64,000 nucleotides of DNA, from contig CALXYI010000060.1 of NCBI GenBank assembly GCA_944392935.1, forward strand, positions 1 to 64,000. Reading direction: 5' to 3'. The position numbers and the translations under genes were made by a program. The notes under the pieces were generated by a model that was not told where the DNA came from, searched no databases, and saw nothing but the letters and a program-made list of their open reading frames with translations. This DNA comes from an uncultured Spirochaetaceae bacterium. GTDB lineage: Bacteria > Spirochaetota > Spirochaetia > Sphaerochaetales > Sphaerochaetaceae. The stretch's first letter is position 1, and every line of letters begins with the position of its first letter. Of this stretch, positions 44,033-59,874 are shown in pieces.

Positions 44033-44899
44033 ATGAAAGGAAAGATGATCCCGCCCATCACCAGACGCTACCGGAAGAGGATCGAGGACCTGACGCTGTC
44101 TGACGACATAGGCTTCATGCGGGCATTCGACGGCAACACGGAGGGTGTGGAGTACCTCGTGCGCACACTCACAGGAAGGGATGACACCACAGTCATCTCA
44201 GCTGAGGCGCAGAAGCACCTCTCGAGCATAGACAGCCACTCCGTCATACTCGATATATTCGCAGAGGGGAAGGATGGAGAGCAGATAGACATAGAGATGC
44301 AGCACTACGACGGATTCCGCGAAGGGCTCTGCTCAAGGATGGGAAGGTACATGGCCTTCCTCCAGCTAGGTGCGCTTGGCAAGGGAGAGGGATACGCCGA
44401 GACAAGGGAATCGATAGTGCTCTTCATATCAAGCCGCGATCCGTTCGGCAAGGGACGGGATGTGTACAGGTTCGGCACGGTGGATCTTGATGATGGGGAG
44501 AGGGAGGAAGGGTTCATGATGAGCTTCTACGTGGCAAACGGGAGCTATCGTGATACAATCGGGACGGAGAGGGGCAGGCTTCTCGGAGATCTTTCCGAGA
44601 AGGAGATAGAGAGGATGAAGAGCCCGATGATGAGGGCCGCGCTCTACAGGGTGAAGGGGGACGAGATGATGCTTCGTGATACATACGGGATGCTCTACAG
44701 GATAGAGACTGAGAATCTTGAGAAGGGAATCAGGAAAGGCATGGAAAAAGGCATAGAGAAAGGAAAGGCCGAGGAAAAGGAGCAGATTGCCCTGCGCCTG
44801 ATAAGGAAGAGCGTCTATCCTCTATCCGAAATCGCAGAGCTTACGGAGCTTCCGATCAAAGAAGTCGAGAGACTTGCAGGGAGCATCAGGATGGAATGA
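44033..44899 (+). CDS. Rpn-family PD-(D/E)XK nuclease / putative transposase (copy 1)
   Basis: 288 residues. Matches the Rpn/TIGR01784 group (recombination-promoting nuclease). Candidate active-site residues are Asp74 (VILDIFAEGKDG) and Glu88/Gln90 (IDIEMQ). After the nuclease core comes MMRAALYRVKGDEMMLRDTY, then a low-complexity linker of EKG/RKG units (about 232-252) and a helical C-terminus (LSEIAELTELPIKEVERLAG). ATG 44033 lies just after TAGGAGGG. The paralogues are at 57.9 and 58.9 kb. An internal ATG at 44741 in the linker could give a 52-residue product. Probably mobile or defence-related. Confidence 0.88.
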   Translation: MKGKMIPPITRRYRKRIEDLTLSDDIGFMRAFDGNTEGVEYLVRTLTGRDDTTVISAEAQKHLSSIDSHSVILDIFAEGKDGEQIDIEMQHYDGFREGLCSRMGRYMAFLQLGALGKGEGYAETRESIVLFISSRDPFGKGRDVYRFGTVDLDDGEREEGFMMSFYVANGSYRDTIGTERGRLLGDLSEKEIERMKSPMMRAALYRVKGDEMMLRDTYGMLYRIETENLEKGIRKGMEKGIEKGKAEEKEQIALRLIRKSVYPLSEIAELTELPIKEVERLAGSIRME

Positions 44900-47237: not shown

Positions 47238-47435
47238 TCATAGGATGGAAACCATTATGCCTATGCCACGGTACCTGTCATATCCAGGATAGAGAGGGAA
47301 CTGATAGAACACCCCAAGCGATATACCATACCACTTCCCTATGTTCAGCTCCGTCATCAGCTTCGGCCTCGGCATGATGCCGTTGAATCCGATAGTGTAC
47401 CCATCCGGCTGGTAATGCGTCTGAATGAACCGCAT
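47238..47435 (-). pseudogene. C-terminal fragment of an outer-membrane beta-barrel protein
   Basis: About 65 residues that match the C-terminal end of the barrel-like protein encoded at 53.8-54.5 kb: the shared pattern is G(I/L)M.RP, then an IG(K/R)W element, G(V/L)FYQ.PLYP.Y and a final hydrophobic strand. Here the N-terminal two thirds, signal peptide and start are missing, and the strand is opposite to the intact gene. A frame continues up to 47486 but with unrelated residues. It looks like the relic of an inverted or duplicated copy. Confidence 0.65.
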
Positions 47436-47532
47436 GCGATAACAGAGGTCAGACATAGGGAAATGCAGAATGATAAAATTAACCAATATTATTACAAGTG
47501 TACTTCAAGCATATCCCTATTTCCCGACTCAA

Positions 47533-47560: not shown

Positions 47561-47602
47561 TTTGACGAAGATAAAAGACAAAACAGATACGAATTGTTCG
47601 GA

Positions 47603-47621
47603 AACTCCGCATTGCGGAGTT
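47603..47621 (+). promoter_or_regulatory. Leader hairpin of the FN3 lipoprotein operon
   Basis: Perfect inverted repeat AACTCCGC-ATT-GCGGAGTT, 8-bp arms, ending 19 bp before the ATG and about 10 bp before the AAGAGG ribosome-binding site. It could be an operator or an RNA stem that affects initiation; no T-run follows. Confidence 0.5.
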
Positions 47622-47640: not shown

Positions 47641-50600
47641 ATGCTGAAACGCGTAATATACCTATTGCCTTTACTGCTTTCATTGCTGCTTCTTGCAAAC
47701 TGTGCACTATCACCTGAGGATAAGATAATAGAGGAGCTTGTCCCGAAGCTGACAGACCTTGATACACCTGCCAATATACAAGTACTCAACAATCATGCTG
47801 ACGGTATCATTTCCATTACATGGGATCCTGTAGAGAACGCGACTTTCTATACAGTCGAATATGAGAGGACAAGCGATTATCTTGAAAGCGCCAATCCTAT
47901 TCCGATAATAAGGAATACGAATTCTGTTGAAATCATAGTACCCGATATCGAGAGCGAAACCAATCAATATGCACGTGATAAAAGGTATATCTTCAGGATA
48001 AAGGCCACATGCCTTGAGAAGAATGACAATGGCCAGGTGATAAACACCATTGAATCAGCGTACAGCGATATCGTAGAAGGTGCTATTGCGGATTATATCT
48101 CAATCACATGCATACAGCAGGATCGGAAGCTTGTGGTATTCGATACAGTATCGAATGTCACTGCACTCGATGGATCTAAGCTGGCAGATCTTGAAGTCAG
48201 GTATTTCGATCATGAATATGTTGAATCAGAGCCCATTGATCCTGACTGGAAAGAAATCCATATAGATGGAATGACAGTGGAATCCGGAAAGGACTATTCA
48301 TTCACTGCAGTCCTCTATGCAGATGGCGTGGCAACAGCTGCAACTGGCCTGGAAGTATCAGGAAGCATTGATTACAACCCTCCGAAAGTGGTCAATCTCA
48401 AAGCAGAGAACAATCTGCGGTCTTCTATAATCCTCAGATGGGATCCCGTCTCGCCTGCAGCAGGTGTTGATGGAGATGTCAGATACGCTATACAGAAGAA
48501 ACCTTCCGACAGTGCCGCCTGGGAATACATCCAGGATCCTGAAGGCAGCATCCTCCTTCTGGACGGAACAACATATGAGGATACTGCTATCGAAAATAAC
48601 AAAGATTATGATTACAGGGTTCTCTCCGCATATCTGCTCAACAATGCTTCAGGTAACACCACAACCCAGCTGCAAGCCACTTCAGAAGCTGCCACAGTGG
48701 AAGGATGCCACGCTGTAGACAATGCCCCGGAAATGCTTGTCGCAGAAATCATCAGCGAAGAGAATGGAAGCGAAGAGAATGGACCATACGAATCACGTGT
48801 GAAGCTTACGCTCAATCCAAGATCCAAGGATCTTCTTGATTGCAAATCTTTCTCTTACGTTATCACCAGAAGGGAAAGAGGAAACAATACCGTAGTCCCA
48901 AGCAGCCATATAACTGGTACCCTGGAATATGAAGACGAGATTTTCCTGACAGAAGAAGAGCACAGGCTCACCCATATATATTATTACACTGTAGAATATT
49001 ATTATGATGATGAATTGATAACACCGGAAAGCCAGGAATACAGGGCTGTGAATGATGACGGCTCTGAATTCGCTCATGAAGTGAAAGGGACAGTGGAAGC
49101 CATTGGCTTCATCCAGGGCTTTGCCATTGATAATGAGAATTATCCTTTAGCTGGAAAGATAAGGTTCAACTGGAATCTTTTCATCCCTGACGATTCTGGA
49201 CTTTCATTCTCGAATCTCCTCATCACCCTGACAAGGACAGGAGAGAGCGGTGAGGAAAGGATAATCGATAACGAACCAGCAGATAGGACTTCCAGAAGCG
49301 CGATCAGCAAGGTATATGAAGACACCTCAGCTGAGCAGAATCAGGAATATGAGTATCAGCTGATAGCCACATACAGCGATTCTGATAGCCTGTACGACGG
49401 AATGACTGCCTTCTCTGAAATCCTGACAGGCCATACCTTGCAAACTCCTGAGAATCTCGCTGCCTCGATGAATACAAGCGAGACTGAAATCAGGCTTGAG
49501 TGGGATGCTGTTCCTGAGGCCTCTGGATATCTTATCAGCTATAGGCTCTCTGGTTCTTCCGGGGCATGGCAGACGAAGTCCATCGATGATCCATCGACCA
49601 CTGCTTACTCTTTCACTTCAGCTGATTCCATCAAGGCTGGCAAGGCCTATGACTTCTATATCCAGAGCATCGATGCGGAGAGTAACGCAACGGCAGCGTC
49701 CAAGACCGTTGAAGGCAGCATGCTCGGCCCGATTGATATAGAGGTTGAGGGCGGTCCTGATTATATCAGGCTTACCTGGGATGAAGCTGATAACGTGAAC
49801 TTCTACACAGTCATAATCTCTGCTTCTGCTTCCCCTTCGGATGAATTATTGCGGGCTATTGCAACCAGGCCTGAATATGAACTGAATGCAGATAATCTTC
49901 CAGATGCCATCAACGATCATTTTGAGTATCCACTCTCTGAGGAATACTATTTTGCTGTTCTGCCAGGTGACATGGAAATCACGGATTATGAGCTGAAAGA
50001 TGGCAGCTGGGTCAGGCCGCCGAAGGAAATTTCTGCTACAAAAGCAATGTCCAAGGATATGATTACCATAACATGGACTACTGTTGCAGATGAAGATATA
50101 AATTCCTATATTCTTTATAAAAAACCCCATGGCTCTGATTCAAATTGGGAATTCGTTGAATATGTTTTTGCAGAATCAGGAACTGAAGCTATATATTATT
50201 TTCCGACAACAACAGATGAATATGATTTCTCTGTCGCTTCCGTCAAAAATGGAAATGAAGGAATTATTCAGGATCGATTCTACAATGAATCCAATTATGG
50301 ATATCCATTGATGAAACCAGACAGAACTGGGGCTTCTGATCTTGGAAATGGTTTCTTCAGGATTTATTTCAATGAAGTAAAAGGTGCAACTGAATATAGG
50401 ATAAATCTGGATCATACAGAAGAAGTTATAATCTCAAAAGCAGCTATTGATGCTGCTCCTTCTTCTATAAGTGATTATTCAAATGGAAGCATTGCTGTTG
50501 ATAACAACGGAGTGATAAGTGTTTATCTAACGGAAATTCCTTTCCAAGTAAATAAAAGCGTGTATTGGAATGTTTCGATAGCAGCACGGAATGATAATAT

Positions 50601-51117
50601 CCCTAATTCTCTACGAGATACAACAGAAGCAGTAGTCTTAACGAAATACTATAATCCAGAAGGAATGGATCCAATCGATTATGCAAATCTTTCAATGGGG
50701 ATATTGAACAATATATTTACTGCAATAAATACTGAATATGAGTCTGATTGGTGGGTTCTGTTTGGAGATAGCGAGCTATTAAAGCTCAACAAACTTGAGG
50801 TCTTGAGAAGCTATGGATCTAAAGATGTTTCCCCAATGGTTCCTAGACATGATGGATACGTTGATTTCAATGGAATAACAGTAAATCAAACCGAATTGAC
50901 AGGGCATGTTGGATATATGCCAAAGCTTGATGGTGGATCAACTGCACAGAATCCTTTGGATTATATAAATGGAGAAGTGAATTTAGTTTTTCCAATTGAA
51001 ATCTATGACAATATCACGCTGAATTTCAACCAGTACAAAGCTGATAATTCAAGTGGATCCGTAAGCTTCAATGGAACTCCTATTGAATTGGATTCTATCA
51101 AGCAATCATTGTTATAA
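47641..51117 (+). CDS. Large lipoprotein with about six fibronectin-III-like domains
   Basis: 1158 residues. Signal peptide with lipobox LLANC (Cys about residue 21). FN3-like units with the (I/L)xxxWDxVxxAxxYxVxY pattern begin near residues 42, 245, 600, 700, 790 and 893; segment 360-590 is beta-rich but divergent. A C-terminal domain from about 1010 contains SDWW, HDGYVDFNG and SGSVSFNG and resembles the end of the next protein. Predicted surface or periplasmic adhesion or scaffold protein; function unknown. From about 50,080 the G+C falls to about one third (by eye), unlike the 5' part, suggesting a mosaic gene. Confidence 0.85.
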   Translation: MLKRVIYLLPLLLSLLLLANCALSPEDKIIEELVPKLTDLDTPANIQVLNNHADGIISITWDPVENATFYTVEYERTSDYLESANPIPIIRNTNSVEIIVPDIESETNQYARDKRYIFRIKATCLEKNDNGQVINTIESAYSDIVEGAIADYISITCIQQDRKLVVFDTVSNVTALDGSKLADLEVRYFDHEYVESEPIDPDWKEIHIDGMTVESGKDYSFTAVLYADGVATAATGLEVSGSIDYNPPKVVNLKAENNLRSSIILRWDPVSPAAGVDGDVRYAIQKKPSDSAAWEYIQDPEGSILLLDGTTYEDTAIENNKDYDYRVLSAYLLNNASGNTTTQLQATSEAATVEGCHAVDNAPEMLVAEIISEENGSEENGPYESRVKLTLNPRSKDLLDCKSFSYVITRRERGNNTVVPSSHITGTLEYEDEIFLTEEEHRLTHIYYYTVEYYYDDELITPESQEYRAVNDDGSEFAHEVKGTVEAIGFIQGFAIDNENYPLAGKIRFNWNLFIPDDSGLSFSNLLITLTRTGESGEERIIDNEPADRTSRSAISKVYEDTSAEQNQEYEYQLIATYSDSDSLYDGMTAFSEILTGHTLQTPENLAASMNTSETEIRLEWDAVPEASGYLISYRLSGSSGAWQTKSIDDPSTTAYSFTSADSIKAGKAYDFYIQSIDAESNATAASKTVEGSMLGPIDIEVEGGPDYIRLTWDEADNVNFYTVIISASASPSDELLRAIATRPEYELNADNLPDAINDHFEYPLSEEYYFAVLPGDMEITDYELKDGSWVRPPKEISATKAMSKDMITITWTTVADEDINSYILYKKPHGSDSNWEFVEYVFAESGTEAIYYFPTTTDEYDFSVASVKNGNEGIIQDRFYNESNYGYPLMKPDRTGASDLGNGFFRIYFNEVKGATEYRINLDHTEEVIISKAAIDAAPSSISDYSNGSIAVDNNGVISVYLTEIPFQVNKSVYWNVSIAARNDNIPNSLRDTTEAVVLTKYYNPEGMDPIDYANLSMGILNNIFTAINTEYESDWWVLFGDSELLKLNKLEVLRSYGSKDVSPMVPRHDGYVDFNGITVNQTELTGHVGYMPKLDGGSTAQNPLDYINGEVNLVFPIEIYDNITLNFNQYKADNSSGSVSFNGTPIELDSIKQSLL

Positions 51118-51130
51118 GGGAGAAGAGTAA

Positions 51131-53338
51131 ATGAACAAAAGATTCCTTCTTATATCATTATTCTTCATCTCTATCTCTCTATTATGGATTTCCTGCAATG
51201 CAGATATCCTCATAAACAATGGAGAGATAACGCTGCCGGAGAACAATACCAGCAAGGATGAAGGTACGGGTACCGATATTCCTCCTGTAGAGCTCGCAAA
51301 GCCAACACGCGTAAACGCAACGAAATCATATTATGCAGACAGCATCAACATAACATGGTCTGCTGTGCCTGGAGCTGATTACTACACAATCGAGAAAACC
51401 GCACATGAAGAAGAGCTGCTGCAGGGAACTGAAGTATGGACAGAAATACAGCAATCCATCATGAGTACAAGCTTCAAGGATCATGATAATCTGCAGCCTT
51501 CGATGTACTATAGCTATCGTGTCACTGCGCACACGAATGAAGGAGTATTCAGCCCGGTCTCTGCATCATCGACAGGAACCATACTGGCATCTCCTGAAGT
51601 CGTTACGGTATCGCAGGGAGAAAGCGAGTCAGAGATATATGTCATCTGGGAACAGATGCCTCATGTCAATTCCTATATTATCTATATGTCGTCCGGGGAT
51701 ACGATCTCTGGTGTGGCCAGTGAGGTAAAAGCCACCGTCGCGTCACGTGAAGGAGTTCAGAATGGATACGCATACCAGATTGATCCGAATCGTGAAAGCG
51801 GAAAGGAACTTGCATTCGGAATATGCAGTGTAGGTGATACGGGAAACAGATCTGATATAAGCCTTCCCCGAATCGGATATACAATCATACCCGGTGCACC
51901 TTCGCAGCCGGATATCAACCCGCAGGAGGATGTCACAAAAGGCACTTCCACGGCCGGGATAACGATCAAATTCCGAACCAATGCAGAGAATCCCGATTTC
52001 CTCATAAGGAGATCTTCTCCGGGAAGCAGTGAAGAGGTCATCCTCGATACATCCACATCGGAAGCTGATAGGGATAATATCACTGCGATCTCTGCAAATG
52101 AATATGAATTCACAGACTATGCAGTTGCCAGGAATGTTGAATATACATACTCGGTGATTGCGATAAATGATATCGGCATGTCACAGGCTGCCTCTGCTTC
52201 CGGCTACCTGCTCTCCCCTGTCACCAATGTCTCGCTGAATCCAGTCACGACAAACGATAGATTCGGCTATGAGCTTAGCTTCAGGCTTCCTGTAGGAAGC
52301 GATGACCCTGACCGTACTGCGGTATATGAGTATGATATCGTTGCGACATCCAAGGGAGGCACTACCCTCTGGCAGGAGACATATTCGGATGCTGATATCA
52401 GCGGACAGATGGGCAGATTCTTCGACTTTGCAAGGAATGTAACAAGGGAAGAGGAAGAGAAAGAGCTGCAGAAGATCGAGATAACTGTCAAATACGATGG
52501 AATGACGACATCCACAGCAACATCGAATATCATCGCGGATATTCCTGACGGAATCGACACGATGGAGGCCTCCAGCAATTCAAAGCCGCTCTCCTCCGAT
52601 AGTCCTAATTCCAGGGGTGTCTATCCTGTTCATGTCCGTTGGACGACTGAATCGACATCACCGAATTTCACACTATTCAGGCAGGACCAGGATGGCAATC
52701 TCACGAAGTTCAATGTTTCCGGCCGTGAATACACAGACGAATCGACAATGCCGCTCGTGATATATGAATACTGGATCGAGGCAAAAGATGCCCTGGGAAG
52801 GACCTTTGGAGAGCCGCATGCTGCCAATTCCTATGGAGCTGTTACCCTTGAAGTCTATAAGGATATGTTCGAATCCCTTTCGCTTAAGCCATGGGATAAA
52901 CAGTCCTATGTTCCCTCAGAGTACAGGACCTGGTGGAAGAATACAGAAGTGGCAAAGAAAATAGAGAAAGGCAATTCATCAAGCCTCACGACTCAGATGG
53001 ATGCCCTTGGATCAGCTTCTGCCAGTGCCCATTTCCATAATGGACGAGTTGACTATAATGCTTCGATGAATGGCATAGGCGCGATAATATCATTCACGTA
53101 TACCAACTTCGGAGAGAATGCGAACTGGTGGATGAATGGCCAGTACTCAATGGACGTGGATGCCAGTGGGACAGGCAGCGCTTCAACTGCTACAAACGGT
53201 TTCGATATACAGGGAATGTATCCCGGCCACATCGGCTTGGAGGAAATAAGAGTCTCTAGCAAAGCTTTCACAGGAAGATATACGATCAGATACGATTATG
53301 GCACCGGTGAAAGCACGACAGCTATGGTTGATGTATGA
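51131..53338 (+). CDS. Lipoprotein with fibronectin-III-like domains
   Basis: 735 residues. Signal peptide with lipobox WISC (Cys about 22). A Thr/Asn/Pro-rich linker to residue 55, then FN3-like units near 56 (INITWSAVPGADYYTIEK), 153 (IYVIWEQMPHVNSYIIYM), 253, 362 and 481. The C-terminal domain from about 580 shares a WW, then H-x-G-x-VDYN arrangement with the preceding protein. SD AAGGGAGAAG lies before ATG 51131, 13 bp after the upstream stop. Its stop overlaps the next start (ATGA). Function unknown; probably partner of the neighbours. Confidence 0.83.
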   Translation: MNKRFLLISLFFISISLLWISCNADILINNGEITLPENNTSKDEGTGTDIPPVELAKPTRVNATKSYYADSINITWSAVPGADYYTIEKTAHEEELLQGTEVWTEIQQSIMSTSFKDHDNLQPSMYYSYRVTAHTNEGVFSPVSASSTGTILASPEVVTVSQGESESEIYVIWEQMPHVNSYIIYMSSGDTISGVASEVKATVASREGVQNGYAYQIDPNRESGKELAFGICSVGDTGNRSDISLPRIGYTIIPGAPSQPDINPQEDVTKGTSTAGITIKFRTNAENPDFLIRRSSPGSSEEVILDTSTSEADRDNITAISANEYEFTDYAVARNVEYTYSVIAINDIGMSQAASASGYLLSPVTNVSLNPVTTNDRFGYELSFRLPVGSDDPDRTAVYEYDIVATSKGGTTLWQETYSDADISGQMGRFFDFARNVTREEEEKELQKIEITVKYDGMTTSTATSNIIADIPDGIDTMEASSNSKPLSSDSPNSRGVYPVHVRWTTESTSPNFTLFRQDQDGNLTKFNVSGREYTDESTMPLVIYEYWIEAKDALGRTFGEPHAANSYGAVTLEVYKDMFESLSLKPWDKQSYVPSEYRTWWKNTEVAKKIEKGNSSSLTTQMDALGSASASAHFHNGRVDYNASMNGIGAIISFTYTNFGENANWWMNGQYSMDVDASGTGSASTATNGFDIQGMYPGHIGLEEIRVSSKAFTGRYTIRYDYGTGESTTAMVDV

Positions 53339-53781
53339 AAAGAAGAAATAGAAGGATATCCGTTATTGCCTTAATGCTGTTCTCGTTATTATTCATCGGG
53401 TGCGATGATATGAAATCATTGATGAGCCTGATTCCGAAATTCGAATCAAGCCTACCCAATGTGATTTCAGGAAAATTCGCCTATTATGAGAATGAAACGG
53501 ATCAGTCTCAAAGAATATATACCGAACTGTATGAATTCGATCCTATCAATAGGACCTTCACCCATTCGGTTGCAGGAGAGGATGAAGAAAGGAAAGGCTC
53601 GTACACCTATGCCTATTCTGATTTCATAATAACGGAATGCAATGGTTTCCTGACTCTCGCATATGAAGATGGAACATCAGCTGCATATGCATTCAAATAT
53701 GAAGCCACAGCTGTTGGCGGACCTGTATCCATTACATTGAGACAGGATAACGTGGATAAGGTGCTTATCTTCGAGCCATAG
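53335..53781 (+). CDS. Small lipoprotein in the FN3 operon
   Basis: 148 residues. Signal peptide with lipobox FIGC. The mature part is beta-rich (SGKFAYYENETDQSQRIYTE, NGFLTLAYEDGTSAAYAFKY), resembling a lipocalin-like or small beta-barrel lipoprotein, but no family is recognised. The start overlaps the preceding stop by 4 bp. 18 bp separate it from the barrel gene, so the four genes form one operon. Confidence 0.75.
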   Translation: MKRRNRRISVIALMLFSLLFIGCDDMKSLMSLIPKFESSLPNVISGKFAYYENETDQSQRIYTELYEFDPINRTFTHSVAGEDEERKGSYTYAYSDFIITECNGFLTLAYEDGTSAAYAFKYEATAVGGPVSITLRQDNVDKVLIFEP

Positions 53782-53799
53782 AGAAGGAGGAGCAAACGG

Positions 53800-54462
53800 A
53801 TGTATGGAACAATGAAGAAGCTTGCAATGATCCTCCTGATGGTGCTTTTTGCCGTCTCTGCATATGCAGATGAGATCATCGAGGCCGAAGAGCCTTCAGG
53901 GATAAAAATCGAGGAAGAGTCGACGAATAACAGAAGCAGCTACGATCCAGACACCTATGATTACACTTTCGGCCTTATCCCAACAGAAGAACTTGATATC
54001 TATTTCGCTTCACATCTGTATATGGATACGACAATGCTCTATGGATATCCGACGATTGGGGCCACATGGGATATCGGTCTCGGTGTCGATACCGTAACGA
54101 TTGCAGCGTATGTGAAATATGCGCATTTCTTCAAACCGCTTGGTTCTGGTACCGGCAATCTTTATATCGCCGAGGAAATGACGGAGATCGGGCTTTCGTT
54201 CAAAGTACGGGCCTATGAGCTTGGACGGTTCAATGTAAGCTTCGGGATAAATACCGGATGGTATCAGCAGTGGCTGATGCATTATTCCAGCGCAAATACC
54301 TACAGTCTCGTAAACAACGGACTGATGATCAGGCCTGAAGCTTCGATTGGGTGGAACTGGATTGGCAGATGGAACATGGAAATCGGCTTATTCTATCAGA
54401 CTCCTCTCTACCCTACATATGAAGGCTACAACGGATGGGGCGTATTCATTAAGCTGGTTTGA
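53800..54462 (+). CDS. Outer-membrane beta-barrel-like protein
   Basis: 220 residues. Signal peptide (KKLAMILLMVLFAVSAYADE) with AYA-D cleavage. The mature chain has alternating aromatic/hydrophobic strands (TVTIAAYVKYAHFF, GLSFKVRAYELGRFNVSFGI, NWIGRWNMEIGLFYQTPLYP) and ends in WGVFIKLV, close to an outer-membrane insertion signal. An acidic spacer follows the signal. Last gene of the FN3 lipoprotein operon. A C-terminal fragment of a homologue lies at 47.2-47.4 kb. ATG 53800 follows AGGAGG. Confidence 0.78.
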   Translation: MYGTMKKLAMILLMVLFAVSAYADEIIEAEEPSGIKIEEESTNNRSSYDPDTYDYTFGLIPTEELDIYFASHLYMDTTMLYGYPTIGATWDIGLGVDTVTIAAYVKYAHFFKPLGSGTGNLYIAEEMTEIGLSFKVRAYELGRFNVSFGINTGWYQQWLMHYSSANTYSLVNNGLMIRPEASIGWNWIGRWNMEIGLFYQTPLYPTYEGYNGWGVFIKLV

Positions 54463-54480: not shown

Positions 54481-54517
54481 AAAAAGAGATGCCCCGGGAC
54501 TGCGATGCAATCCCGGG
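54481..54517 (-). terminator. Terminator between converging envelope gene sets
   Basis: CCCGGGA and TCCCGGG pair across an 11-base loop. On the minus strand it is followed by GGCATCTCTTTTT, so it serves the barrel gene ending at 54543; it may also stop the plus-strand operon. Confidence 0.65.
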
Positions 54518-54542
54518 ACGCTCTATCTGGAGAATTCCATTA

Positions 54543-55820
54543 TCAGAACTGATAACCTATCCTGAAGCCGAATCCAAGCCTGTCGAGCTTCGATGAGAGC
54601 TCTGCATTGAAACCGCCACACTCCACTCCGAGAGCAGCCTCCCTGGATTCATACTTGGCATATATGCCGAGATCTTCGCTTATGTCATAGTCGAATCTGA
54701 CGGAGAAGAAGCTGAATAGATCGATCTCGTAGCCTTTCACATGACTCTGCCAGATTATCTGGCTGTAGATATTGCTGAACTCCACATCCAGATGGTACCT
54801 TCCTTTATCCCAGAGGATTGATGCCGCTATGTCGAATGGCCTGAAATAGAGGTTGTCATCATGGATGAACTCGAATCCCGAGACTATCTCCTCCGCACCG
54901 AAGTACCAGTATGTCTGGAATGATGGAGCATTGCGGAAATCAAGAGTGAATGACAGCTCATCATCCAGGCGGTAGAACATGCCGAGGTTGAGGTCGATCT
55001 CAGCTCCGAAGTCGTAGATGTTGGAGGCGAACAGCGTAAGAGGTGCATTGTCCATCCTTGCCTGGATGAATACGCTGTCCGCTATTGTCGAGCGGAACAC
55101 AAGCTGAGGGCTTATGGAGAACCCTATTGCGAATACATCCTCATAGACAAAGGCTCCATAGCCGAAATCCGCCCCGACTGCGATTCCGAACTCATTGCCG
55201 TAGTCATGGCCTTCTGTGGAAAGGGATGTCAGGAGAGATTCCGTTCCATCGAAGAAGAAATCCACGTTCCAGTTCCATCCGAAGCCATTGCTTACCTTGC
55301 CGCCATAGAGTCCAAGCCCCATATTGAGATCGCTCCCCAGCAGATGCATCGGGTATTCCACGGCTCCGCTTGAAAGTGAATTGAGAACAGCCTTCGCCTG
55401 GTTCCCATCCCCTATCTCTGTATCGAAGCGTCCTCCATCCTGGAGATACTCACGGATATATGCGGCAGCTTCCTCTCCGGAGTATCCTGAGGGATAACCG
55501 GGATCGAAATCGAAGATGCTGCTGATTGCATCGTAATTTTCCGAGAGGAAATCATCGCTCTGGTTCAAAAGGTGATGCCTAAGGTAATCAGCGCTGCTGG
55601 TAAGCGTGGAGGCAGGGGACGAGAGGAACCTGAGTCCATCTATCTCGCTCTCTCCATAGAGCCTGAAGCCGAATGGAACGGACTGGCTTATCTCAGCAAG
55701 CCTTCCCGGGCTCGTGACCCACTCTTCCTTCTCCCTTATCTCCTTCATGGGAATCATGGCAGCGGGGAGACTGGATGCGATCACTGCTATCAGGAGGAAA
55801 ACAGAAAGAGCACGTTTCAT
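54543..55820 (-). CDS. Outer-membrane beta-barrel protein, unknown function
   Basis: About 425 residues. Signal peptide MKRALSVFLLIAVIASSLPA-A. A helical 130-residue region (YLRHHLLNQSDDFLSENYDA) precedes a long stretch of beta strands rich in aromatic residues (FGWNWNVDFFFD, LSFTLDFRNAPSFQTYWYF, LFSFFSVRFDYD). The C-terminus FGFRIGYQF ends in Phe, as outer-membrane proteins do. The ATG shares one base with the stop of the upstream lipoprotein (TGATG), and GGGAGGG lies just upstream, indicating coupled synthesis. Confidence 0.8.
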   Translation of the reverse strand: MKRALSVFLLIAVIASSLPAAMIPMKEIREKEEWVTSPGRLAEISQSVPFGFRLYGESEIDGLRFLSSPASTLTSSADYLRHHLLNQSDDFLSENYDAISSIFDFDPGYPSGYSGEEAAAYIREYLQDGGRFDTEIGDGNQAKAVLNSLSSGAVEYPMHLLGSDLNMGLGLYGGKVSNGFGWNWNVDFFFDGTESLLTSLSTEGHDYGNEFGIAVGADFGYGAFVYEDVFAIGFSISPQLVFRSTIADSVFIQARMDNAPLTLFASNIYDFGAEIDLNLGMFYRLDDELSFTLDFRNAPSFQTYWYFGAEEIVSGFEFIHDDNLYFRPFDIAASILWDKGRYHLDVEFSNIYSQIIWQSHVKGYEIDLFSFFSVRFDYDISEDLGIYAKYESREAALGVECGGFNAELSSKLDRLGFGFRIGYQF

Positions 55821-57751
55821 CAGTTGCCCTCCCATTCAAGAATATAAGTGTAAGGTGATTCTTCTTTATACATATCCTCATCCGTATAGATTACATCCTT
55901 CATGAGGGCTAACGAATCCGGATGCTGATTCTTCCGTAGATAGCTATTTCCAATTGTTGCTATTATATCAAAAGATGATTTTGCCTGTATTCTGTTATAA
56001 AATATCAGGTAGCAATTACCATTCTCGGTTTCCAACAATCGGAATTCAGTTTTTGTATTTGCTGTTGACTCCAGAAGGTTCGCTGTAGATTGAACAGAAG
56101 CGATATACCAATCATTGTTCTTGATTGAGCTATCCTTTGATACTACCATCCAGTTCTTAACAAGTCCTGCTCCTTCAGGGTCAGCATTCCATTTGAAATT
56201 GTTCCACATATATGCATTCTGATAAGATTCATTCGCATTACCTTCGTTATATGTATATAAACAATCAACGGAACCATTGGAAATACTTGGATCTACTAGC
56301 GGACATAGCCTTACAGAAGTGTCATTCGCTGGTGCAAAGGGCTGCTTGTTTGGATCCTGTGTAGAGGCAAAGAAATAATATGTATAGTCACTTTCTTTCC
56401 CTGTGGCATTATTTATCGTTGAGGCAAGTTCGACATTCACAACGAATTCCTGCATATAGTTGCCGCCGCTGCTGGATGAATATCTGCTGTCATAGAATCT
56501 GAATGTTCCTGAGAATGCCTCTGTCTCAATCTCAATGGGAACTGCTGCATCCGCAAGCTTTATATAACCTGAATATGCAGGAGCATGATTGCTCTCAAGT
56601 CCTGTGATCGTCAGCTTTAGGGTATTTCCCACAGTCTCCTTCTTGAGCATTTTCCCCATGTCACTTGAATTGAATCCGTTAAGATGGACTTCGAGAAGAG
56701 ACTCATAATCATCAGCGATTCCATCTGCCAGCGGTATCTCTGCCCAGTAGTTCTGGCGTCCTTCCTTTTCCTTCGCAAGGACTACCTGTGATGTGAACTC
56801 GATTGTATTGCTTACAGATATCAGATCAGAGCCATTATACGCTTCAATTCTGAAGAGACCTGTATCGAAAACATCGAAGTCAAATGTGCATGAGGTATCA
56901 GGAGCAGCAATCCTTTCCCTCTGCTGCCCATAAGTGAGATTCATGAGAACAATCGAATCTGCATTCGAAGGGATATTGCTTGCGATCAGCATATTGCTCT
57001 GGGCTGATAGTTCCATGGTGACTGATCCGGTATAGACACCGGACTGTGCTTTCCATGGCAGAGTACCCCATTCTTCCCCTGAATACCTGTGATAGAGATT
57101 GATCTGATAATCCGTATTTGAATCAAGATCAGCTATCGTAATCCGATTATCATCCGATAATCCTGCTGCTGTTATCGATGGATTCCCATTGAGGGAATAT
57201 CCAAATTCCATGCCTCCAGGGATGAGCTCGGAAGCAATCTGGATGACTACCGAGTTCTCATTCCTTGCATAGACATATGCCTCCGGTGAAACGCTGTTTA
57301 TATCAACACGTTCCTTCGATACGGAAATGGCAGTCATGAATTCCCAGCTATCTGCTTCCGGGTTCGTTGATGAGCGGGAGGCGTATATGGATATCATATA
57401 TTCGTTTTCCGCAATCTCCGGCAAAGCATCTGTGCTGATCTCCATCGAATAGAAGCCATCGGACAGGGGCCTCACATCTGCCTTTGCTATGAAGCGCGGA
57501 GTTTCGCCTGCCGTTGCCCGTGACTGATTCATATCATTATCGACAGAATAGCCATAGGAATGGGCATTCATGACTCCTTTGAATCTTATCGATATCGTTG
57601 TTCCATCATTCGATGATGTCACGGAGCCTGCAGATGCACCGGTATCAAGCTCAGGCTCGGAAAGCTCCTTGTAGCTTACGGGAGAGCAGCCGGTCATCAG
57701 TGCTGCGATAAGCATCATGGCAAGGAAAATATGGAATACACTTCTATGCAT
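55820..57751 (-). CDS. FN3-like lipoprotein coupled to a barrel protein
   Basis: About 643 residues. Signal peptide with lipobox LMTGC. Beta-rich modules with FN3-like boundaries (TTISIRFKGVMNAHSYGYSV, NSVVIQIASELIPGGMEFGY, DLDSNTDYQINLYHRYSGEE). The C-terminal third (SGTFRFYDSRYSSSSGGNYM onward) looks like a separate beta domain, and its G+C is lower than the 5' part. Start ATG 57751 follows TTGGAG. The gene is coupled to the barrel gene. It mirrors the FN3 lipoprotein/barrel operon on the other strand. Confidence 0.78.
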   Translation of the reverse strand: MHRSVFHIFLAMMLIAALMTGCSPVSYKELSEPELDTGASAGSVTSSNDGTTISIRFKGVMNAHSYGYSVDNDMNQSRATAGETPRFIAKADVRPLSDGFYSMEISTDALPEIAENEYMISIYASRSSTNPEADSWEFMTAISVSKERVDINSVSPEAYVYARNENSVVIQIASELIPGGMEFGYSLNGNPSITAAGLSDDNRITIADLDSNTDYQINLYHRYSGEEWGTLPWKAQSGVYTGSVTMELSAQSNMLIASNIPSNADSIVLMNLTYGQQRERIAAPDTSCTFDFDVFDTGLFRIEAYNGSDLISVSNTIEFTSQVVLAKEKEGRQNYWAEIPLADGIADDYESLLEVHLNGFNSSDMGKMLKKETVGNTLKLTITGLESNHAPAYSGYIKLADAAVPIEIETEAFSGTFRFYDSRYSSSSGGNYMQEFVVNVELASTINNATGKESDYTYYFFASTQDPNKQPFAPANDTSVRLCPLVDPSISNGSVDCLYTYNEGNANESYQNAYMWNNFKWNADPEGAGLVKNWMVVSKDSSIKNNDWYIASVQSTANLLESTANTKTEFRLLETENGNCYLIFYNRIQAKSSFDIIATIGNSYLRKNQHPDSLALMKDVIYTDEDMYKEESPYTYILEWEGN

Positions 57752-57947
57752 ATCAATACTCCAATCCGCCCCACTGAAGCTGACACTAACACAGGAAATT
57801 GTAAGAATCAAGGACTTATCGAACAAAAATAACTGATATTGTTAGATAAAATCTGTAAAAATGGGATGATATATCCACGCAGAGCCACGATATCCACAGA
57901 AAATATGAATGAAAGCATAATTCCGGAAAGCGACGCCTCCCGCAGCC

Positions 57948-58802
57948 TTATGGCTGCTTGATGCTTCCTGCCAGCTTCTCGACTTCCTCGATCGGGATAT
58001 CTGTAAGCTCTGCGACTTCGGATATGGCATAGCTTTTCTTCCTGAGCATCTTCATGGCTATCTGCCTCTGGCGCTCAGCCCTGCCTTCCTTTCGTCCTTT
58101 CTCCATGCCTTTCTCAAGGTTCTCAGTCTCTATCCTGTAGAGCATCCCATATGTGTCACGAAGCATCATCTCGTCCCCCTTCACCCTGTAGAGAGCGGCT
58201 CTCATCATCGGGCTCCTCATCCTGCCAAGGTCCTTCTCCGAGAGGTCGCTGAGAATCCGGCTCCTCTCCGTCTCGATTGTACCACGATAGCTCCCGTTTG
58301 CCACGTAGAACCATGTCCTGAACCCTTCCTGCACCTCTCCGTCATCCATGTCGGAGATGCCGAACCTGTATACATCCCGGCCCTTGCCGAACGGATTGCC
58401 GCAGGTGATGAAGAGCACTATCGATTCCCTCGTCAGGCTGTATCCCTCTCCCTTGCCCAGCGCACCTAGCTGGAGGAAGGCCATGTACCTCCCCATCCTC
58501 GCGCAGAGCCCTCCTGAACCGCCTAGGAAGCGCTGCATCTCTATGTCTATCTGCTCTCCATCCTTCCCCTCAGCGAATATGTCGAGGATGGCGGAGTGGC
58601 TGCCTATGCTTGAGAGGTGCTTCTGGGCCTGCACGCTGATGACGGTGATGTCATCCCGTCCTGTGAGGGTGCGCACGAGATGCTCCGTGCCCTCTATGTT
58701 GCCGTCGAATCCACGCATGAAGCCGATGTCATCGGCAAGCGTCAGCTCCTCGATCCTCTTACGGTATTCCTCTGGAATGGGCGGGATCATCTTCCTTTTC
58801 AT
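57948..58802 (-). CDS. Rpn-family PD-(D/E)XK nuclease (copy 2)
   Basis: 284 residues, intact, strongly similar to copy 1. Putative active-site Asp in AILDIFAEGKDG and Glu-x-Gln in IDIEMQ. The EKG/RKEGR linker is shorter than in copy 1, then the helical C-terminus ISEVAELTDIPIEEVEKLAG. ATG 58802 follows AGGAGG. It lies 101 bp behind copy 3 on the same strand. It shares a 108-bp perfect nucleotide match (57958-58065) with copy 3 (58908-59015) and a 78-bp one (58614-58691), while the central part differs. Confidence 0.88.
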   Translation of the reverse strand: MKRKMIPPIPEEYRKRIEELTLADDIGFMRGFDGNIEGTEHLVRTLTGRDDITVISVQAQKHLSSIGSHSAILDIFAEGKDGEQIDIEMQRFLGGSGGLCARMGRYMAFLQLGALGKGEGYSLTRESIVLFITCGNPFGKGRDVYRFGISDMDDGEVQEGFRTWFYVANGSYRGTIETERSRILSDLSEKDLGRMRSPMMRAALYRVKGDEMMLRDTYGMLYRIETENLEKGMEKGRKEGRAERQRQIAMKMLRKKSYAISEVAELTDIPIEEVEKLAGSIKQP

Positions 58803-58903
58803 TATTTCTTCCTCCTGAAAAGGAATACGCCTGGATCGTTCATTCATGCCAACTTCCGGGCATGGAAGAACTGATGAATACGTGGTTTTACACAGGATAA
58901 GGA

Positions 58904-59765
58904 TTATTTGATGCTTCCTGCCAGCTTCTCGACTTCCTCGATCGGGATATCTGTAAGCTCTGCGACTTCGGATATGGCATAGCTTTTCTTCCTGAGCATC
59001 TTCATGGCTATCTGCTTCTTTTCCCGGGCCCTGCCTTCCTTTCGCCCTTTCTCCATGCCTTTCCTGATTCCCTTCTCAAGGTTCTCAGTCTCTATCCTGT
59101 AGAGCATCCCATATGTATTGCGCATCATCATCTCGTCCCCCTTCACCCTGTAGAGAGCGGCCCTCATCATCGGGCTCCTCATCCTGCCAAGGTCCTTCTC
59201 CGAGAGGTCGCTGAGAATCCGGCTCCTCTCCGACTCCATTGTATCACGGTAGCTCCCGTTTGCCACTATGAAGGACTCCCTCCCTCCCTCCTGGCATCGG
59301 GGCTCCGGTGCGGTCCCGGGCCCTGAAGTCATATACCGCTCTTCCTTCACCGAAGGCATCTGTGTCGGTGATGAATATGACCATGACCTCTCCCGCATGG
59401 CTGTAGCTCTCCCCCTTATCCAGGGAATGCAGGACAAGGAGGGCTCCGTATCTTTCCGCTCTTGCCCCGAGCTCCGTCCTGGAGCCGCGGAAGCGCTGCA
59501 TCTCTATGTCTATCTGCTCTCCATTCCTCCCTTCTGCATAGATGTCGAGTATGACGGAGTGCCTGTCTATGCTTGGGAGGTGCTTCTGGGCCTGCACGCT
59601 GATGACGGTGATGTCATCCCGTCCTGTGAGGGTGCGCACGAGATGCTCCGTGCCTTCTATGTTGCCGTCGAATCCACGCATGAAGCCTATGTCATCGGCA
59701 AGCGTCAGCTCCTCTATCCTCTTGCGATATTTCTCGGGGATGGGCGAAATCGTCTTTCCCTTCAT
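58904..59765 (-). pseudogene. Rpn-family nuclease (copy 3), frameshifted at a TCCC repeat
   Basis: The 5' frame starts at ATG 59765 (MKGKTISPIPEKYRKR) after AGGAGG and runs into a +1 frame at the repeat 59277-59291, ending prematurely. The rest (SFIVANGSYRDTMESE to the end LAGSIK) continues in another frame. Removing one 4-bp unit restores a single frame (PGGRESFIVANGSYRD). Nothing else is broken, so it may be a phase-variable gene now OFF or a recently dead one. The Asp (VILDIYAEGRNG) and IDIEMQ motifs are intact upstream of the shift. Confidence 0.85.
59277..59291. repeat. Tetranucleotide repeat (TCCC/GGGA) inside Rpn copy 3
   Basis: TCCC occurs three times in a row plus TCC. It marks the exact frameshift position. 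Copy 2 has no such repeat at the equivalent place. Confidence 0.9.
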
Positions 59766-59817
59766 ATGCTCCTCCTTCTGAAGGGATATACGCCTCAACC
59801 TCTGATTCCTGTCGGAT

Positions 59818-59854
59818 TGCAGAAAGCCCTCCTGATCGTTTGGACCGGAGGGCT
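59818..59854 (-). terminator. Terminator of ppdK
   Basis: On the minus strand AGCCCTCC pairs with GGAGGGCT across 14 bases, followed by TTCT. It begins about 20 bp after the ppdK stop and precedes Rpn copy 3. Confidence 0.7.
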
Positions 59855-59874
59855 CATGCACTGGACTTATGCCA

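Follow-up and report, generated by a model that had tools for sequence, protein, structure and literature searches.

A four-gene lipoprotein and barrel cassette

The window, the whole stretch of 64,000 nucleotides analysed here, carries four genes on its + strand that we call A, B, C and D. A (47641..51117) encodes a lipoprotein of 1158 aa in which tandem FN3 domains precede a variable C-terminal domain (about residues 1005-1158). B (51131..53338) encodes a second one of 735 aa, with an FN3 array and a C-terminal domain that is conserved. They are followed by C (53335..53781), a small beta-rich lipoprotein of 148 aa, and D (53800..54462), a 220-aa protein with a signal peptide, modelled as an 8-stranded outer-membrane beta-barrel. 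The first-pass annotation had proposed a tightly spaced operon of four genes at 47641-54462, and this is borne out by ORFs that lie exactly there, all on one strand, with gaps of 13 bp (A-B), -4 bp (B-C) and 18 bp (C-D). Lipoprotein-type cysteines close the signal peptides of A (LLLLANC), B (LLWISC) and C (LLFIGC), and by a simple pattern the lipobox recurs in 33/40 homologues of A, 38/41 of B and 38/41 of C. All three proteins look like lipoproteins, for which lipidation and a surface-facing outer-membrane location are predicted.

FN3 domains had also been claimed for the two large lipoproteins, and they are real in both. A matches Pfam fn3 at an E value of 1.9e-12 (47.7 bits, above the cutoff of 25), while B comes just under that cutoff (E 2.3e-4, 21.7 bits); of the Treponema B proteins, 14 of 18 match at E <= 0.01, the best at 7.8e-12. 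With a family-specific FN3 profile, five FN3-like stretches are found in A and three in B, counts from which weak domains are certainly missing. FN3 arrays are known also from secreted enzymes and periplasmic proteins. For C, profile searches against Pfam, NCBIfam and PDB gave nothing convincing.

The model of D consists of a signal peptide and then exactly eight beta strands, and its Foldseek matches in the PDB are NspA (best, E 1.4e-5), OmpA, Ail and OmpX, with E values to 2e-3 and a probability of 1.0. The barrel-like outer-membrane protein of the first reading is thus modelled as an 8-stranded barrel of the NspA/OmpA/Ail fold class. D shares this eight-strand fold with NspA, the OmpA N-domain, OmpX and Ail, but at 8-12% sequence identity and with no match to a Pfam outer-membrane protein family; likewise, Pfam and PDB profile searches with D and 35 homologues matched no named family of such proteins, and NCBIfam gave nothing convincing for D. 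Unlike those four proteins, D belongs to a conserved gene set with three lipoproteins. It is too small for a secretion pore.

The C-terminal domain of B, which we call the tip or 'GMYP' domain (52826..53335, + strand), is modelled over 170 aa as four helices followed by nine strands (pLDDT 93.7, pTM 0.87). Foldseek found no fold match for it among the solved structures of the PDB, the best hit (E 0.04, TM 0.2) being rejected as noise, and PDB profile searches with the tips of both B and A gave nothing convincing. Within the window's family the B tip has an invariant K-P near its start, and its G-M-Y-P turn is common to this family and Treponema. A and B had been said to end in a related domain sharing the string HxGxVD(F/Y)N. 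The relationship holds in Treponema, where a profile alignment of the two ends covers 153 columns (HH probability 90.5%, E 1e-6), whereas in the window's family it is weak (53%, just 25 columns), and the string itself is not conserved in A. As judged from these alignments, the ends appear distantly related, clearly so only in Treponema, and their likeness is a remote relationship rather than a shared motif. Some Treponema also encode the B tip by itself, with nothing but an ordinary signal peptide before it, or joined to one FN3 domain directly after B. Such stand-alone or single-FN3 versions with ordinary signal peptides are seen in Treponema and another family of the phylum, for example at L094 7843-8355, L095 7448-8023, L111 9433-9939, L096 8315-9127 and L097 8357-9307.

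Distribution and exchange of the gene set

In the window's family, which would be the Sphaerochaetaceae, 46 of 139 genomes and 5 of 22 genera have a match to B. The window and every one of the 40 loci fetched from this family share the order A-B-C-D, counting one locus where the A ORF is present though our script did not assign it; one of the 40 has a 1.8-kb gap from A to B. Across the phylum, a profile of the last 170 residues of B finds relatives in 62 of 393 genomes, among which is a second large family that, going by the named matches, would be the Treponemataceae. Furthermore, a scan of 84,980 species confirmed 124 relatives, and the best 80 of these 124 are all spirochaete-labelled but one. 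Named carriers are T. bryantii, T. porcinum, T. socranskii, T. brennaborense and Brucepastera parasyntrophica, next to many rumen, horse-faeces and other gut genomes. A further 110 loci, mostly Treponema, were made up of those best 80 of 124 relatives and 30 others, sets that overlap for some species, so that the figures refer to loci and not to independent genomes. They comprise 74 with the full A-B-C-D and 3 with the permuted order C-D-A-B, most of the remainder being cut by contig ends or holding distant B-like proteins. The permuted loci indicate that the gene set stays together after rearrangement. All three (L091, L153 and L172) are from Treponema MAGs, probably of termite-gut origin, judging from the isolate names.

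Between the two families, full-length B is homologous (BLAST E values down to 1e-46), and profile comparison joins both the B tips (HH 99.5%, E 4e-23) and the C proteins (97.5%, E 8e-12). For D it yields 24% and no clear match, so that the link between D of the window's family and that of Treponema rests on position and barrel-like sequence. The earlier reading had called for a search for the same gene set in other spirochaetes and had allowed that its genes might be co-conserved nowhere. The set is found in 40/40 family loci and in 77 loci of other families, a strong co-conservation, and the co-occurrence of the four genes is far beyond chance.

The window's own copy seems to have a different history from its surroundings. 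In a close relative (genome G046, locus L057) the genes lie on one strand in the order F-E-A-B-C-D-OAH-metA, F and E being the second pair treated below. The metA/OAH genes of the window match this relative at 80.7% DNA identity, and synteny ends at 47436. Beside OAH, at 47238..47436 on the - strand, are the last ~66-70 codons of a native D, 83% identical to D of the relative, and past 47436 comes a complete A-B-C-D in the orientation opposite to the native one, between metA/OAH and F-E. The window's B is only 26% identical to B of the relative, compared to 65% to B of a genome from another genus (G009), and in the B tree the window's cassette falls within a clade of another genus (99/97). The D remnant, the stop in synteny and the foreign-type B together point to a native cassette replaced by an inverted foreign one, with a scar left behind; import as an inverted replacement is the most likely origin of the present copy. 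Moreover, the B tree holds at least three further cross-genus placements, and, going by such sequence comparisons, species exchange the cassette as one piece. The region is also flanked by several closely similar paralogues in tandem (57948-59861 and 44033-44899), which we take to be Rpn/PD-(D/E)XK-like, with direct repeats of up to 108 bp identical.

The F-E pair and a shared palindrome

Downstream of D lies a second pair on the - strand: E (54543..55835), a 430-aa outer-membrane protein and partner of F, and F (55820..57754), a lipoprotein of an FN3-containing family whose start is likely the ATG at 57754 and not the listed TTG at 57826. A 13-bp GC-rich stem (54491..54519) separates the convergent ends of D and E, and because its T-tail is found solely on the - strand, it fits a terminator of the F-E operon. 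F-E adjoins A-B-C-D in 12 loci of the family and is co-oriented with it in 11, the window being the exception. Compared to G046, E is 36% and F 25% identical to its counterpart, low values next to the ~90% identity of metA/OAH, so that F-E may likewise have been exchanged. A phase inversion of this pair between inverted repeats was considered and rejected, since each copy of the repeat is itself palindromic.

Profile searches with E against Pfam, NCBIfam and PDB gave nothing convincing. Its one likeness to type IX secretion is a weak match to Pfam PorP/SprF (E 0.018, below the cutoff), and an identity as PorP/SprF was rejected, as this single sub-threshold match finds no counterpart in E homologues. 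As such, no PorP/SprF-family protein for a type IX secretion system is found at the locus.

In several F-E/A-D loci, a 34-bp palindrome of the form TTATCGAACA-N14-TGTTCGATAA stands upstream of F and A. The window carries it upstream of F (57816..57849, TTATCGAACAAAAATAACTGATATTGTTAGATAA), the sole site in its genome at <=2 mismatches. Before A, at 47571..47604 on the + strand and thus 37-70 bp upstream of the gene, is a degenerate variant, ATAAAAGACA-N14-TGTTCGGAAA, which also has a spacing of 14 and is conserved upstream of A in related cassettes. Scanning 48 genomes of the genus at <=2 mismatches gave 31 places (0-3 per genome; sites in L184-L222), compared to 0 matches for a reversed control pattern in the same genomes. 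Counted from flanking genes, 30 of the 31 stand before F (15), A (6), a porin-like outer-membrane protein (6) or other lipoproteins (3), and the last is inside a housekeeping gene. All six sites in genus g2 precede lipoprotein genes, and matches upstream of A or F with <=3 mismatches always have a spacing of 14, where 10-18 was allowed. This distribution suggests that the palindrome marks a surface-protein regulon, and it fits a dedicated operator, for which the palindrome is a candidate. With 13-bp arms and an 8-bp spacer, 34 bp in all, the palindrome is built like a lox-type site. A recombination site was nevertheless rejected as first choice: copies within a single genome have different spacers, and the sites stand before gene starts, both of which set this reading back.

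Known systems and possible function

The first-pass annotation had put the cassette forward as a candidate for an undescribed envelope system, and it keeps that standing: profile, structure and literature searches gave no named system, and the literature search turned up no description of the four genes together. One of the nearer likenesses is to Bacteroidetes FN3 accessory lipoproteins, to which we take Pfam DUF4992 to be assigned; these too are FN3 lipoproteins, and A scores above the DUF4992 cutoff (4e-8). The cassette differs from them in its pairing with an 8-stranded barrel, in having its own tip domain, and in coming without SusC/SusD or enzymes. Pfam and NCBIfam searches found none of the hallmarks of Sus-like polysaccharide utilisation loci, or PULs (SusC-type TonB receptor, SusD, glycan enzymes), among A-F, and no neighbour is constant. 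The same databases gave no fimbrillin-family subunit match in A-D that would point to type V (FimA/Mfa) pili, and Fimbrillin_C is matched by one of the 18 Treponema B proteins, marginally (0.0097). Among spirochaetes, T. pallidum TP0483 is annotated as an FN3-domain protein and counted among the known or predicted surface proteins (PMC10600179), which is its likeness to the cassette. In a 1.1-Mb genome taken as T. pallidum group (G194), the B profile gave a single 35-residue FN3-like match. The tip-domain profile found no match there and the four-gene set is absent, in a search whose eight genomes included no positive control; on this absence of a tip match, a link to TP0483 was rejected.

Little is known of spirochaete surfaces, which have been studied mostly in pathogens, and these seem to lack the set in the genomes checked. 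A module that occurs in the gut-type family of the window and in many gut and oral Treponema provides a concrete handle on the attachment of commensal spirochaetes, consisting of an unmatched tip fold, a split between variable and conserved parts, and a candidate regulatory site. Some of its carriers are in culture (T. bryantii, T. porcinum, T. socranskii, Brucepastera), which makes it testable.

This split became apparent on comparing related cassettes in eight pairs. In 8/8, B and D are better conserved than A, and the C-terminal domain of B is better conserved than its remaining sequence; in 7/8, the C-terminal domain of A varies more than the remainder of that protein. For the most similar pair, dN/dS ranges over 0.02-0.18 (A 0.15, B 0.04, D 0.05), values by which the cassette genes are under purifying selection, A included overall; positive selection is not shown. 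With A diverging fastest and the B tip and D conserved, A is probably the variable, ligand-facing part, and B, C and D would form a common core.

From what was computed here, namely gene content, co-conservation, the barrel fold, the unmatched B-tip fold, divergence, replacement and the shared palindrome, we infer surface exposure, a physical complex, ligand binding and a palindrome that acts as operator. We give about an even chance to the reading that A-D form one outer-membrane surface complex, with the A tip as variable ligand binder, within a palindrome-marked regulon. Speaking against it are the FN3 arrays seen in secreted enzymes and periplasmic proteins too, the lack of a clear profile match between the D proteins of the two families, the purifying selection on A overall and the degenerate state of the site before A in the window's genome. 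A, B and C would be exported by Sec, lipidated and transferred to the outer membrane, where the FN3 arrays of A and B would form rods. D, as a small non-porin barrel, would anchor or nucleate the complex, making up a common assembly core with the B tip domain, and C would be a small accessory lipoprotein. The A tip would face the environment and bind its ligand, be it a host or partner surface or a glycan, while the cassette and F-E would belong to one surface-protein regulon marked by their shared palindrome. The role of A-D would accordingly be in adhesion or glycan binding, two roles not distinguishable here.

How do other explanations compare? Co-conservation refutes the notion of four unrelated lipoprotein and outer-membrane protein genes that are neighbours by chance, which is barely credible: C and D are indeed short and poorly conserved in sequence, but more than 110 loci of several families have this very set of four, tightly spaced and kept despite permuted order. 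More weight goes to a PUL-like glycan-capture system, in which carbohydrate-binding tips of the FN3 lipoproteins would keep plant or mucin polysaccharides bound to the cell, as accessory lipoproteins of Bacteroidetes PULs do, and which we still consider rather unlikely. Among the named carriers, many are spirochaetes from rumen, horse, termite or other guts, 10 of 18 B homologues show a weak likeness to the C-terminal domain of GH85 endohexosaminidases (best 4.5e-6), and DUF4992 is matched by some B homologues as well as by A. Against these stand the varying neighbours, with no consistent carbohydrate enzyme, sugar transporter or TonB-dependent receptor nearby, and the lack of any CBM family match in Pfam or NCBIfam.

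A structural module of the outer envelope, be it an outer sheath or tether, would have A and B as ligand-free, periplasm-facing spacers or as a surface coat. The deep conservation of the B tip and D within families, and of the B tip between them, speaks for such a module, and so do the stand-alone tips with ordinary signal peptides in some Treponema. However, A outpaces B and D in divergence, species swap cassettes, as a structural tether would not usually do, and many genomes of the family lack the set, so that we hold this to be unlikely. Another view, offered tentatively and at rather low probability, is that of a spirochaete-specific surface apparatus: an interchangeable FN3-rod complex on a small barrel, with a new-fold tip and one operator that switches it along with other surface proteins. 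There the tip may also circulate as a free secreted protein, acting as an assembly or capping subunit.

Some cassettes bear long acidic Pro/Asp/Thr repeat tails on C, and others long N-terminal acidic repeats on D (examples of such C or D genes are L054 7335-8138, L055 12273-12989, L038 11120-12280 and L045 5748-7343). These repeats look like length-variable linkers.
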